Position numbers and translations under genes: made by a program. Of a DNA stretch of 47,608 nucleotides, positions 40,998 to 44,703 are shown piece after piece; position 1 is the stretch's first letter, and each line of letters starts with the position of its first letter. Source of the DNA: an uncultured Flavobacteriaceae bacterium (GTDB lineage: Bacteria; Bacteroidota; Bacteroidia; Flavobacteriales; Flavobacteriaceae); contig CAJQNO010000049.1 in the NCBI GenBank assembly GCA_905479745.1, positions 1 to 47,608 of the forward strand, written 5' to 3'. The notes beneath the pieces were generated by a model. That model had not been told where the DNA came from and searched no databases. It was given only the letters and a program-made list of their open reading frames with translations.

Positions 40998-41762
40998 TTA
41001 GTTAATATTACGATAGAGCAACCACAGATTCACATATCGTTTAAACACGGCAAAGGCGTTTATATAGGCCAGGATAAATCCTTCTTTGCCATCCAGTATG
41101 CCCAGCCGAATTAGATATTGATGCCAAAATCTGTAAAATGGTCGCCACAGAAACTGCCATAAAGTGGGGCGTTTATTCTGCTGGAACATCATTTGTGCCT
41201 TCAATTTACTATATCGGTGCAATTTTGAAGTATAATCATCAAAGGATTTGTAGGTGTGATGTGGTAACCGGGATCGAAATCTTTCGGTTACACCCCTGGC
41301 TTCGATCGTTTCATGCACGAGATCTCCATTGTATAGGCAGTGCTCCTTGTGGAACAGCCTGATTACCCAATCTGTCTGAAAACCACTGTATTTTATACGT
41401 TTTCCCATAAAATATAACTCCCGTTTTATGGCGTAGGCTATCGCCCTCGGGTCTTTCAGGAAAGAATGTATCTCCTCCTTGATCTCGGTAGTGATCTCTT
41501 CATCGGGGTCGAAGAATACGATCCAGTCGTTGGTAGCCTGAGAGATCGCAAAATTCTTCTGATCACTAAAATTCCTGAATTCTCTTTCGATGAATCTTAC
41601 CTTCGGAAAAGCGGTGGCAAGCTCCTTTGTATTATCTGTGCTGAACGAATCCACTATAATGATCTCATCCGCGAACGAAAGACTTTCAATGAACTTCTCG
41701 ATCACCTCACCTTCGTTCAGGGTAATGGCAAGGGCGGAAATTTTATGGGTATTGTCCAACAA
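40998..41762 (-). CDS. Family 2 glycosyltransferase, WaaE/KdtX type
   Basis: A GT-A transferase of 254 residues resembling LPS-core WaaE/KdtX enzymes: ISALAITLNEGEVIEKFIE, FADEIIIVDSFSTDNT, REFRNFSDQKNFAI, the metal site DWIVFFDPDEEIT, then the acceptor region HHTYKSFDDYTSKLHRYS and the closing INAFAVFKRYVNLWLLYRN. No ATG or GTG precedes the conserved first strand; the only choices are TTG at 41762 or 41759. It is paralogous to the gene at 42530-43267. Confidence 0.87.
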   Translation of the reverse strand: MLDNTHKISALAITLNEGEVIEKFIESLSFADEIIIVDSFSTDNTKELATAFPKVRFIEREFRNFSDQKNFAISQATNDWIVFFDPDEEITTEIKEEIHSFLKDPRAIAYAIKRELYFMGKRIKYSGFQTDWVIRLFHKEHCLYNGDLVHETIEARGVTERFRSRLPHHTYKSFDDYTSKLHRYSKLKAQMMFQQNKRPTLWQFLWRPFYRFWHQYLIRLGILDGKEGFILAYINAFAVFKRYVNLWLLYRNIN

Positions 41763-41818: not shown

Positions 41819-42523
41819 ATGGCAAAACTTCCGGTTTTAATGTATCACGATGTGGCGCCTTCCACCAGCGAAGGGTTGGTTATAAGTGTTCGAAGGCTGG
41901 AAGAACAACTCAAATGGCTTTCGGAAAATCAATACACTAGCTGGCATTTTTCTGAATTGGAAGATCTTACCACGCTTCCCGGCTCTAAGAACGTAGTGAT
42001 AACCTTCGATGATGCCTATGTTAGTTTTAAAGATCTGGCTGTTCCTCTGCTTCAGAAATATGATCTAAAGGCCACCTTATTCGTGCCACTGGGATACCTG
42101 GGAAAAACAGACGAGTGGAACACAGGAAAGGTGGATATCATGACTGCCGAGCAACTACATTCCCTGCAGCCTGATACGGTCGAACTGGGTTATCATTCTT
42201 TTCAGCATAGAAAGTACAACGAACTTACCCTTGAGGAGACAGCCACCGACACACAATGTGGTTTTGAGGTTGTAAAAAAGCATAAACTCGCACTCAGTCC
42301 GGCCCTGGCGTATCCCTATGGAAAATTCCCAAGGGAAAAAGAAAGCTATACAAAGTTTGTCGAATTGCTGAAACAACAGGGATTTAGCTATGGACTTCGG
42401 ATAGGGAACCGGCTCAATAAATTTCCATTCCCGGATCCGTTTAAAATTCAGCGTTTGGATATTAAAGGTGAATATAACCTGGGAAAATTCAGAAGAAAAA
42501 TTAAGTACGGTAAAATAATATAA
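41819..42523 (+). CDS. NodB-type polysaccharide deacetylase
   Basis: A carbohydrate esterase family 4 protein of 234 residues without a signal peptide. Metal-site motifs are LPVLMYHDVAP near the start, VVITFDDAYVSFKD with the catalytic/metal aspartates (about 61-74), ELGYHSFQHRKYNEL with the two histidines, and LAYPYGKFPREKES. The enzyme should remove an N-acetyl group from a sugar, here probably a lipid-linked core or surface saccharide handled on the cytosolic side. It is a lone plus-strand gene between two minus-strand glycosyltransferases. Confidence 0.9.
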   Translation: MAKLPVLMYHDVAPSTSEGLVISVRRLEEQLKWLSENQYTSWHFSELEDLTTLPGSKNVVITFDDAYVSFKDLAVPLLQKYDLKATLFVPLGYLGKTDEWNTGKVDIMTAEQLHSLQPDTVELGYHSFQHRKYNELTLEETATDTQCGFEVVKKHKLALSPALAYPYGKFPREKESYTKFVELLKQQGFSYGLRIGNRLNKFPFPDPFKIQRLDIKGEYNLGKFRRKIKYGKII

Positions 42524-42529
42524 GAGAGA

Positions 42530-43267
42530 TCACCGCATTCCCTTGTGCAGCAACCGCAATTTTACATATCGCTGAAATACTCCGTAGGCATTTACCGCAG
42601 CCACCGTTAGACCGGGAATACCGTCTCTAAATCCTCCTTTTAGAATATAAGATCGAAAAAACCGGTATGATGGTTTGATCCATAATTGAAACCAGCTCGC
42701 CTTTTTACCCTTCTTATATAGTTGTTCCGCCTGAAACCAGGCGTAGGTCTCCTTTTTCTCAATATACGCCTCCAGCCCCTTATAGGTATAATGGAGCATA
42801 TGGTTCTTTAATTTTCCTATACTCCCTTCGCAATGTAACTTCTCATGCACCGTTCCTGTAAAATGAGCTCCGGCGCGTTTTACCAGCCTTAGCACATCGT
42901 CACTGTGGTGGTAAAGAAATCGGTTCATGTAAAAATGAGGGAAATTAATTTTATAACCGCCGTGCTTAGGGTGCGAAATGGTACGCTTTATTTCATCTTC
43001 CAGCGAATGGGTAACGCGTTCGTCCGCGTCCAGAAATAATGCCCAGTCACTGCTAACATGCTCCAGGGCGTAGTTTTTCTGGGCAGAGAAATTGTCGAAT
43101 TCCCGCTGTAATAATTTCGTGATATAAGGTTTGGCAAGTGCAACCGTATTGTCTGTGCTGTACGAATCTATAAGGATGATCTCATCGGCGAAAGCCACCG
43201 ACCGCAGCGCGTCTACTATATAGGCTTCTTCGTTGAAAGTAGGGACAATGACCGATAACGATTGCAT
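42530..43267 (-). CDS. Family 2 glycosyltransferase, WaaE/KdtX type
   Basis: A GT-A transferase of 245 residues in the WaaE/KdtX group: SLSVIVPTFNEEAYIVDALR, FADEIILIDSYSTDNT, REFDNFSAQKNYAL, metal site DWALFLDADERVT, and the later HYTYKGLEAYIEKKETYA and VNAYGVFQRYVKLRLLHKG. It shares the entire layout with the gene at 40998-41762, so the two are paralogues that probably add consecutive or alternative core sugars. Its ATG lies four bases after a -7 box in a 36-base divergent gap. Confidence 0.9.
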   Translation of the reverse strand: MQSLSVIVPTFNEEAYIVDALRSVAFADEIILIDSYSTDNTVALAKPYITKLLQREFDNFSAQKNYALEHVSSDWALFLDADERVTHSLEDEIKRTISHPKHGGYKINFPHFYMNRFLYHHSDDVLRLVKRAGAHFTGTVHEKLHCEGSIGKLKNHMLHYTYKGLEAYIEKKETYAWFQAEQLYKKGKKASWFQLWIKPSYRFFRSYILKGGFRDGIPGLTVAAVNAYGVFQRYVKLRLLHKGMR

Positions 43268-43271
43268 GGAG

Positions 43272-43279
43272 CAAACTTA
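43272..43279 (-). promoter_or_regulatory. -7 box of the minus-strand glycosyltransferase
   Basis: TAAGTTTG on the minus strand matches TAnnTTTG and lies four bases before the ATG at 43267. Its -33 position (about 43299-43304) overlaps the divergent start codon. Confidence 0.5.
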
Positions 43280-43290
43280 CTAAATAACTT

Positions 43291-43298
43291 TATCTTTG
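43291..43298 (+). promoter_or_regulatory. -7 box of the plus-strand glycosyltransferase
   Basis: TATCTTTG matches TAnnTTTG exactly and lies five bases before the ATG at 43304. Its -33 position would fall in the 5' end of the minus-strand gene; no clear TTTG is there. Confidence 0.5.
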
Positions 43299-43303
43299 CA
43301 CCA

Positions 43304-44125
43304 ATGCAAACGATAGACACCTCCATTATTATTAGTACGTATAATTCGCCGGCATGGCTGGAAAAAGTACTTTATGGGTATAACAACCAAAGCTACCGTA
43401 TGTTCGAGATCGTGATCGCAGATGATGGTTCGGGTGAGGAAACAAAGGCGCTTATTGAGAGAATGAACGAGGAGGTTTTTTATCCTATCGTCCATGTATG
43501 GCACGAAGACAACGGATTTCAGAAGTCGCAGATCCTTAACAAGGCTATTTTAAAATGCTCCACCCCTTATATAATTATGAGCGACGGGGATTGCATCCCG
43601 CGTAAGGATTTTGTCGAACAACATGTAAAGTACAGGGAAAAAGGATATTTTCTGTCTGGAGGTTATTTTATGTTACCCATGAACATCTCCGAGGCGATTA
43701 GCAGAGATACAATTTATTCTGAAGAATGTTTCGACCTAAGGTGGCTCAAAAAACACGGTCTGAAATCTTCTTTTAAAAACAACAAGCTAAATTCAGGCCC
43801 CTTTAAAGCAGCTGTCCTCAATGCGGTCACTCCTACCAATGCCAGCTGGAACGGGCATAATGCCAGTGGCTGGAAGGAAGACATTTTGGCTGTGAACGGA
43901 TTTGATGAACGCATGCAGTATGGCGGGCAGGATCGTGAATTAGGGGAGCGGCTTGTAAATTATGGCCTTAAGAGTAAGCAAATACGGTATAACGCTGTGG
44001 TGATCCATCTGGACCACCCACGCGGATATAAGAACCAGCAATCCATCGATAAGAACCGCGCCATCCGGAAAGAGACCCGGGAAAAGAAATTAGAACGAAC
44101 CCCTTTCGGGATCAAAAAAGATTAG
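43304..44125 (+). CDS. Family 2 glycosyltransferase with galactosyltransferase-type C-terminal domain
   Basis: A GT-A enzyme of 273 residues. The N-terminal half has TSIIISTYNSPAWLEKVL, VIADDGSGEETKALI and the metal site IIMSDGDCIPRKDF. The C-terminal part has VNGFDERMQYGGQDRELGERL, which matches the glyco_transf_7C domain of chondroitin-polymerase-like enzymes. The true start is ATG 43304; an in-frame TTG at 43262 would read through the divergent gene's start and promoter. The stop interlocks with that of the methyltransferase gene. Confidence 0.88.
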   Translation: MQTIDTSIIISTYNSPAWLEKVLYGYNNQSYRMFEIVIADDGSGEETKALIERMNEEVFYPIVHVWHEDNGFQKSQILNKAILKCSTPYIIMSDGDCIPRKDFVEQHVKYREKGYFLSGGYFMLPMNISEAISRDTIYSEECFDLRWLKKHGLKSSFKNNKLNSGPFKAAVLNAVTPTNASWNGHNASGWKEDILAVNGFDERMQYGGQDRELGERLVNYGLKSKQIRYNAVVIHLDHPRGYKNQQSIDKNRAIRKETREKKLERTPFGIKKD

Positions 44126-44703
44126 ATCTTTTTATATACCCCGATCTTCCAATAACGTAGTTCTTCATTGGTGGTAACCGTGGTGAAAGCAAGTTCTTTC
44201 AAACCTTTATTCTTTTTAAAATATTCCCAGCAACCAGTACCTTCCCTGTAAATCGAAATAATCAGCACCCCGTTTTCATTGAGGTGGCCCAGCATCCTGT
44301 CTAACACATTCTGCTTTTCGGAATCATGGATATAATAAAAGGCTTCGTTGAAGACTATCGCATCGAAATTCCGTTGAGGTTTAAACGTGATAGCATCGGC
44401 GGCGAGGAATTCCGACTTAGGAAATTTTTTTCCTCTGGCTTTGTCTATCGATACTTTCGAAAAATCAATACCCAGAAAATAGCTGTATTCCAGGTCTTCC
44501 ATTCGAAGATTTAACACGCCATCACCACAACCAATATCCAGGATAGCCGGATTCGCCGGGGCGTATTCAGCAATAAAACTAACGATCTGGCGATATCTCG
44601 CAACCTCCTTCTCACTTTGTAAACTATTCCAACGCCCGCTTTTATACTGTTTATTCCAGCGTACCTTACGTCTCCAGTGATGAAATTTATCAAGTAAGTT
44701 CAT
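44122..44703 (-). CDS. SAM-dependent methyltransferase
   Basis: A class I methyltransferase of 193 residues. Motif I is PAILDIGCGDGVLNLRM (about 54-70), with the acidic residue ending strand 2 in FLGIDFSKVS, and FDAIVFNEAFYYI as motif post-I/II. The N-terminal HHWRRKVRWNKQYKSGRW is basic. Within this locus it may O-methylate a core sugar, but the substrate is not apparent. It begins 1 base after the heptosyltransferase-like gene, so they form an operon. Confidence 0.85.
   Translation of the reverse strand: MNLLDKFHHWRRKVRWNKQYKSGRWNSLQSEKEVARYRQIVSFIAEYAPANPAILDIGCGDGVLNLRMEDLEYSYFLGIDFSKVSIDKARGKKFPKSEFLAADAITFKPQRNFDAIVFNEAFYYIHDSEKQNVLDRMLGHLNENGVLIISIYREGTGCWEYFKKNKGLKELAFTTVTTNEELRYWKIGVYKKI

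Follow-up and report, generated by a model that had tools for sequence, protein, structure and literature searches.

Two divergent glycosyltransferase genes in the genome of an uncultured member of the Flavobacteriaceae are separated by only 36 bases, and this gap appears to hold a complete promoter core for each of them. The genes, here called A and B, lie on contig CAJQNO010000049.1 (47,608 nucleotides, the whole stretch of DNA that was analysed and hereafter the window), which is number 49 of the 215 contigs of a 3.1-Mb genome with its nearest relatives among the Flavobacteriaceae; of the matches listed, the closest that bears a name is a metagenome-assembled genome (MAG) labelled Flavobacterium, in which B is 96% identical. 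In the reading that we prefer, with a probability of roughly 0.7, the two compact cores are housekeeping (sigma-A type) TAnnTTTG promoters placed back to back, one per glycosyltransferase, which would co-express both enzymes with a mild competition that probably favours B. Each core would start transcription at, or within about one base of, the ATG, giving two leaderless mRNAs. RNA polymerase would bind in one orientation at a time and clear quickly, so that both genes would be expressed in the same cell, and the mild mutual occlusion would probably cost the weaker partner, A, more than B. Start sites, leaderless translation, competition and co-expression are what we infer here from sequence. 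The elements concerned are as follows:

42530 to 43267, minus strand: gene A, a family-2 glycosyltransferase (GT2) of 245 amino acids with its ATG at 43267 (Pfam Glycos_transf_2, PF00535, E 1.1e-20)
43304 to 44125, plus strand: gene B, a GT2 of 273 amino acids (PF00535, E 1.2e-20)
43268 to 43303, no strand: the shared gap of 36 bases with both promoter cores, between the minus-strand ATG (43267-43265) and the plus-strand ATG (43304-43306)
43272 to 43279, minus strand: -7 box of A, TAAGTTTG, an exact TAnnTTTG, 4 nt from the ATG of A
43280 to 43290, no strand: 11-bp A+T-rich spacer between the boxes, CTAAATAACTT, mostly retained in Aequorivita loci that have no A box at that place
43291 to 43298, plus strand: -7 box of B, TATCTTTG, an exact TAnnTTTG that also fits the strict TAHHTTTG, 5 nt from the ATG of B
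43266 to 43267, minus strand: predicted transcription start of A, at the ATG, 5 or 4 nt after the box by the distance reported for Flavobacterium johnsoniae (available text of PMC6847099)
43303 to 43304, plus strand: predicted transcription start of B, 4 or 5 nt after the box by the same distance, at the ATG or one base before it (available text of PMC6847099)

The first-pass annotation of this DNA had reported start codons 36 bases apart with an exact TAnnTTTG 4–5 bases before each ATG, and the coordinates bear this out; the boxes of both genes match the -7 box of the Bacteroidota sigma-A promoter exactly. The annotated starts of A and B are well placed, since the ATG of A is preceded by an in-frame TAA, whose end lies nine bases upstream, and the Pfam GT2 domain begins at residue 5 in A and 7 in B. 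An alternative TTG at 43262 could lengthen B by 14 codons, and such an extension would read different codons in close relatives because the gap there is 35, 36 or 37 nt. Of 434 candidate boxes in F. johnsoniae, 241 stand 4 or 5 nt ahead of a predicted start and were regarded as probable promoters; the -33 element of that species is weak, with stronger A+T-rich patches at -18 and -28 (available text of PMC6847099). As transcription in that species starts 4–5 nt past the box, both mRNAs are predicted to be leaderless. The spacer CTAAATAACTT is probably the -18 region of the B promoter, because most of it is kept in Aequorivita loci that lack the A box there.

Upstream of the boxes, a TTG stands 22 bp from that of A (absent at this spacing in the relatives L034 and L038), while the nearest one for B is 26 bp away, which exceeds the usual TTG-to-box spacing. 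The same annotation held that the upstream element of each promoter must lie inside or across the start of the other gene; the -33 positions for a start at the ATG, 43271 for B and 43300 for A, do stand beside the opposite start codon, but they are inside the gap and outside the coding sequence. The predicted starts are 36–38 bp apart, with each -7 box about 24–32 bp upstream of the opposite start. Given the usual polymerase footprint of about -55 to +20, two complexes at these positions are predicted to overlap almost completely, which supports the earlier suggestion that polymerase is unlikely to occupy both promoters at once.

Conservation of the arrangement was followed in the loci nearest by B protein, drawn from the best 80 of at least 578 confirmed relatives and from 30 loci of a 119-genome set (B being present in 54 of the 119), and the locus counts given here describe close relatives. 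After 13 of 112 loci were dropped because they were parts of the window or contigs that repeat, in length and match, one present under a different name (L001, L002 and L005–L015), 99 loci with B remained, among which 66 have a divergent A within 3 kb at 58% A identity or more and are treated as orthologous pairs; this set excludes 20 further divergent hits at 29–46% identity and 13 loci where no divergent A lies within 3 kb. We called a pair compact where the gap was at most 70 nt, a line of our own choosing that puts L037 (77 nt) and L078 (80 nt) just on the apart side, and gene starts were chosen automatically, which may leave some distances wrong by a few codons. Within the genus both boxes and a gap of 35–36 nt are present in 7/7 genomes (our own and six others), in one of which (L055) B starts with GTG. 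The loss of boxes in close relatives, which the first-pass annotation thought would tell against its idea, is thus not seen at genus level but does occur in part of the family.

The orthologous pairs divide into 34 compact loci (gaps of 33–70 nt) and 32 apart loci (77–1545 nt). Exact boxes stand within 16 nt of both starts in 22 of the compact loci, of B only in eight, of A only in three and of neither in one, and the corresponding counts for the apart loci are 17, 12, two and one. By gene, this gives an A box in 25/34 compact and 19/32 apart loci, and a B box in 30/34 and 29/32, every one of these B boxes being TATCTTTG, TATATTTG or TACCTTTG; the commonest A box among compact loci is TAAGTTTG itself (11/34). 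Compact loci include relatives labelled Aureitalea, Pukyongia, Kordia (where the boxes lie further out from the starts), Leeuwenhoekiella, Aquimarina, Olleya, Lacinutrix and one Aequorivita. On a tree of the B proteins the compact or apart label changes 10 times, at least three of them forced by well-supported branches, in a tree whose bootstrap values are unsettled and whose midpoint root does not fix the direction of change. In the same tree a locus whose record is titled uncultured Rhodobacteraceae (L086) groups with Formosa-type Flavobacteriaceae, and probably belongs to a mis-binned or mislabelled MAG contig.

Where the genes lie apart, many of the boxes are still beside them. In L036, L039 and L056, for example, each of the more widely spaced genes has a box to itself, and a back-to-back CAAAnnTA was found within 28 nt upstream of the B box in none of the 29 apart loci that have a B box. 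The B box is missing within 16 nt in the other three apart loci, among which L078 retains an intact block by A, the start of B there being probably mis-set. A two-box block within 24 nt of the start of A is present in 28/66 loci, with the boxes 11 bp apart in 17, 12 in six, 25 in three, and 9 and 8 in one each. In four loci (L041, L043, L060 and L088) the full block stands beside A and is followed on its right by an open reading frame (ORF) of 319 amino acids, which lies between the block and B and matches Methyltransf_23 in both of the loci searched (L041 and L088), and B has another box of its own. Aequorivita loci carry CCAACTTC or similar letters at the place of the A box, which may be a decayed A box, next to the remaining spacer, TAAATAACTT, and B box. 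Because the boxes stay by their genes in separated loci, we take each to belong to its own gene and the overlap to be common but dispensable; conserved position and these natural separations support the view that the boxes act like real promoters of their own genes.

The wider genome offers a background for this placement. In a 400-kb sample from a genus relative, a box stands 4–5 nt before a candidate ATG nine times for 296 genes, two of the nine belonging to the ortholog of the A/B pair, with other small peaks at 8 nt (five) and 11 nt (four), and a reversed-motif control gives one at 4–5 nt. Placement of the leaderless type is a normal minority, in line with Flavobacterium psychrophilum, where leaderless transcripts make up 5.5% of mRNAs with mapped starts (available text of PMC9723704). 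The sample holds 41 divergent gene pairs (overlaps of more than 20 nt left out), of which two have a gap of 36 nt or less, one of these being the A/B ortholog, and in that ortholog alone among the 41 do boxes stand within 6 nt of each start. Our own genome has 33 back-to-back box pairs at spacings of 3–33 against 22 for a reversed-pattern control, and six against seven at spacings of 8–14. Besides A/B, 12 of the 33 sites have an ORF on both sides (uncurated ORFs of at least 70 amino acids starting within 80 nt). Six other divergent ORF pairs have both ATGs within 35 nt of the boxes (L117, L152, L154, L155, L161 and L165), the tightest with a gap of 43 nt, and none is as tight as A/B. A family-wide rule favouring tight back-to-back boxes was considered and rejected, as across 60 family genomes tight pairs (spacing 8–14; 858 against 724 in the control) are no more enriched than wide ones (spacing 40–46; 935 against 767).

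The consequences of exclusive occupancy were simulated with a two-promoter model that admits one polymerase at a time and has no feedback, compared with an independent control, under assumed binding of 0.003–0.03 per s, clearance of 0.001–1 per s, an mRNA life of 300 s and a protein loss time of 7200 s. With equal promoters, rates fell by 0–50%, the correlation between the two proteins ranged from -0.21 to +0.08 (down to -0.25 for the mRNAs), and 0–4.6% of samples had protein levels that differed more than fivefold, against 0–1.5% without exclusion. A tenfold weaker promoter facing a clearance of about 100 s dropped about threefold, from 0.0023 to 0.0007 starts per s, the largest loss for a weaker partner in the simulations. 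For such a tenfold unequal pair, samples more than fivefold apart rose from 5% without exclusion to 96% with it at a clearance of 0.01 per s, and from 99% to 100% at 0.1 per s. In the model this effect is a real steady bias, not switching, and occlusion can tilt the A:B ratio without making expression either/or, absent feedback.

Gene context narrows where the promoters can be. Both genes are flanked by convergent neighbours:

41819 to 42523, plus strand: polysaccharide deacetylase, convergent with A and ending 6 bases from its end
44122 to 44703, minus strand: S-adenosylmethionine (SAM) methyltransferase, convergent with B and overlapping its end by 4 nt

Here A and B are thus single-gene units, and the promoter of each must lie within the 36-base gap or inside the opposite gene. 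A tandem paralog of B on the same strand follows within 200 nt downstream in 28/99 loci, such that B is not always alone; it is 55–62% identical to B and lies 10–30 nt downstream (e.g. L037–L039 and L041–L047), and in genome G005 it has one in-frame TGA and may be a decaying copy.

A chance origin of the box pair in A+T-rich DNA is hardly credible. The 8-base motif alone does occur at background frequency (49 matches in the window against 41.7 +/- 6.3 expected), but only 13 of 200,000 single-base shuffles of the 36-mer give both boxes back to back, and the pair recurs across many genera at similar distances from both starts; the placement of the boxes, unlike the count of the motif, exceeds chance. 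More has to be said for a failure of one or both boxes as working promoters, with transcription starting inside the opposite gene, and here several observations weigh against our reading. In F. johnsoniae G is almost absent at both n positions, giving the refined consensus TAHHTTTG (available text of PMC6847099), and the A box TAAGTTTG, with a G at the second n, violates this rule, while the B box obeys it. No exact A box is found within 16 nt in 9/34 compact and 13/32 apart loci, and in one genus member (L035) the A box is 3 nt from the ATG, where a start at 4 nt would fall inside the start codon. A second minus-strand box inside B, TAGCTTTG at 43388–43395, is kept in 45/66 loci and could serve as a promoter for A, giving a leader of about 115 nt. 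However, this inner box also has a G in its nn, its letters are explained by the conserved codons of a protein stretch, YNNQSYRM, and in many apart loci the proximal boxes go with their own genes, and we regard an inner start as improbable. Since G is absent in 35/42 boxes within 40 nt of an ATG, against 239/359 boxes overall in the 400-kb sample, a G-containing A box is tolerable but likely weaker, and it is this disfavoured G that makes A the presumed weaker partner.

The first-pass annotation went on to suggest that packing the promoters together could make expression of the two transferases mutually exclusive; in that case the surface would vary from cell to cell. The nearly complete overlap of the predicted footprints speaks for this, but exclusive occupancy without feedback gave no either/or switching in the simulations (no search was made for a regulator or switch that would add feedback), the compact arrangement is missing in 32/66 orthologous pairs, with gene order and a box within 16 nt of both starts persisting in 17 of these 32, and tight boxes are not specially enriched; we consider the proposal very improbable. 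Reciprocal occlusion could instead be a selected device, in which overlapping cores fix the enzyme ratio as each promoter depresses the other. Three observations are consistent with this: 23 of the 28 two-box blocks near A have spacings of 11–12 bp, the arrangement is fully conserved within the genus, and unequal promoters showed the simulated effect (the threefold drop and the rise from 5% to 96%). On the other hand, compact loci are interspersed with apart ones on the tree, some blocks have spacings of 8, 9 or 25, tight pairs are not enriched over wide ones family-wide, and the uniform spacing could come from common descent alone, which leaves selection unlikely. A related and slightly less doubtful idea, which we put forward tentatively, is that two leaderless sigma-A promoters which occlude each other may form a conserved two-way block of some 27 bp, a single polymerase-sized site that divides initiation between two surface-glycan transferases and so sets their ratio; the block is retained as a unit beside a different right-hand gene in the four loci with the 319-residue ORF. 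Our preference stays with two ordinary promoters that co-express both enzymes.

Seen in this light, the two ordinary Bacteroidota promoters form a compact pair, which stands out in that both transcripts are predicted to be leaderless, in a phylum without Shine–Dalgarno signals. It resembles the sigma-ABfr promoters of F. johnsoniae in its box, in a box-to-ATG distance that fits a start at the ATG, in its A+T-rich upstream DNA and perhaps in a weak -33 element, and differs in that the cores are packed back to back and both are predicted to be leaderless, where most F. johnsoniae transcripts are leadered, 87% with more than 10 nt (available text of PMC6847099). The leaderless mRNAs of F. psychrophilum likewise start at the ATG, as predicted here, in a family dominated by sigma-A TAnnTTTG promoters, but in A and B two such genes share one gap (available text of PMC9723704); the words 'divergent' and 'bidirectional' do not occur in the main text of that paper. 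Bidirectional promoters, which are biased to gaps between divergent genes on the chromosome, also send divergent starts from one short region, but they use one symmetric -10 for both starts, which lie 7–25 bp from each other with 18 bp the commonest distance, whereas the predicted starts of A and B are 36–38 bp apart and served by two separate asymmetric boxes (available text of PMC10268837). A symmetric shared -10 of this (Grainger) type was rejected on that spacing. The head-to-head genes may also be able to influence each other as do divergent Escherichia coli promoter pairs coupled by supercoiling (available text of PMC4469952). Among the titles listed in searches of open-licence PMC papers, none fits a leaderless divergent pair or the A/B gene pair, which is weak evidence of absence. 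With the same pair overlapped in some related species and apart in others, the locus is a natural test bed for interference between overlapping divergent promoters, and the effect of overlap on output should be measurable on natural variants.

Both A and B belong to GT2 by PF00535. NCBIfam matches are partial only and below cutoff for A, and all below cutoff for B, which also has a region with a weak match to Glyco_transf_7C, of galactosyltransferase type (PF02709, E 8.9e-5, narrowly missing the cutoff). The region further encodes a heptosyltransferase-like GT9, a Kdo/WaaP-kinase-like protein, the polysaccharide deacetylase and additional glycosyltransferases, and from this neighbourhood A and B likely act in the making of lipopolysaccharide or a related surface glycan. 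Searching plasmids for B returned 19 records, every one below 60% identity. Elsewhere in the window, at 40998–41762, lies a second glycosyltransferase akin to A, with about 34% protein identity and a stretch of 47 bp at 83% DNA identity.
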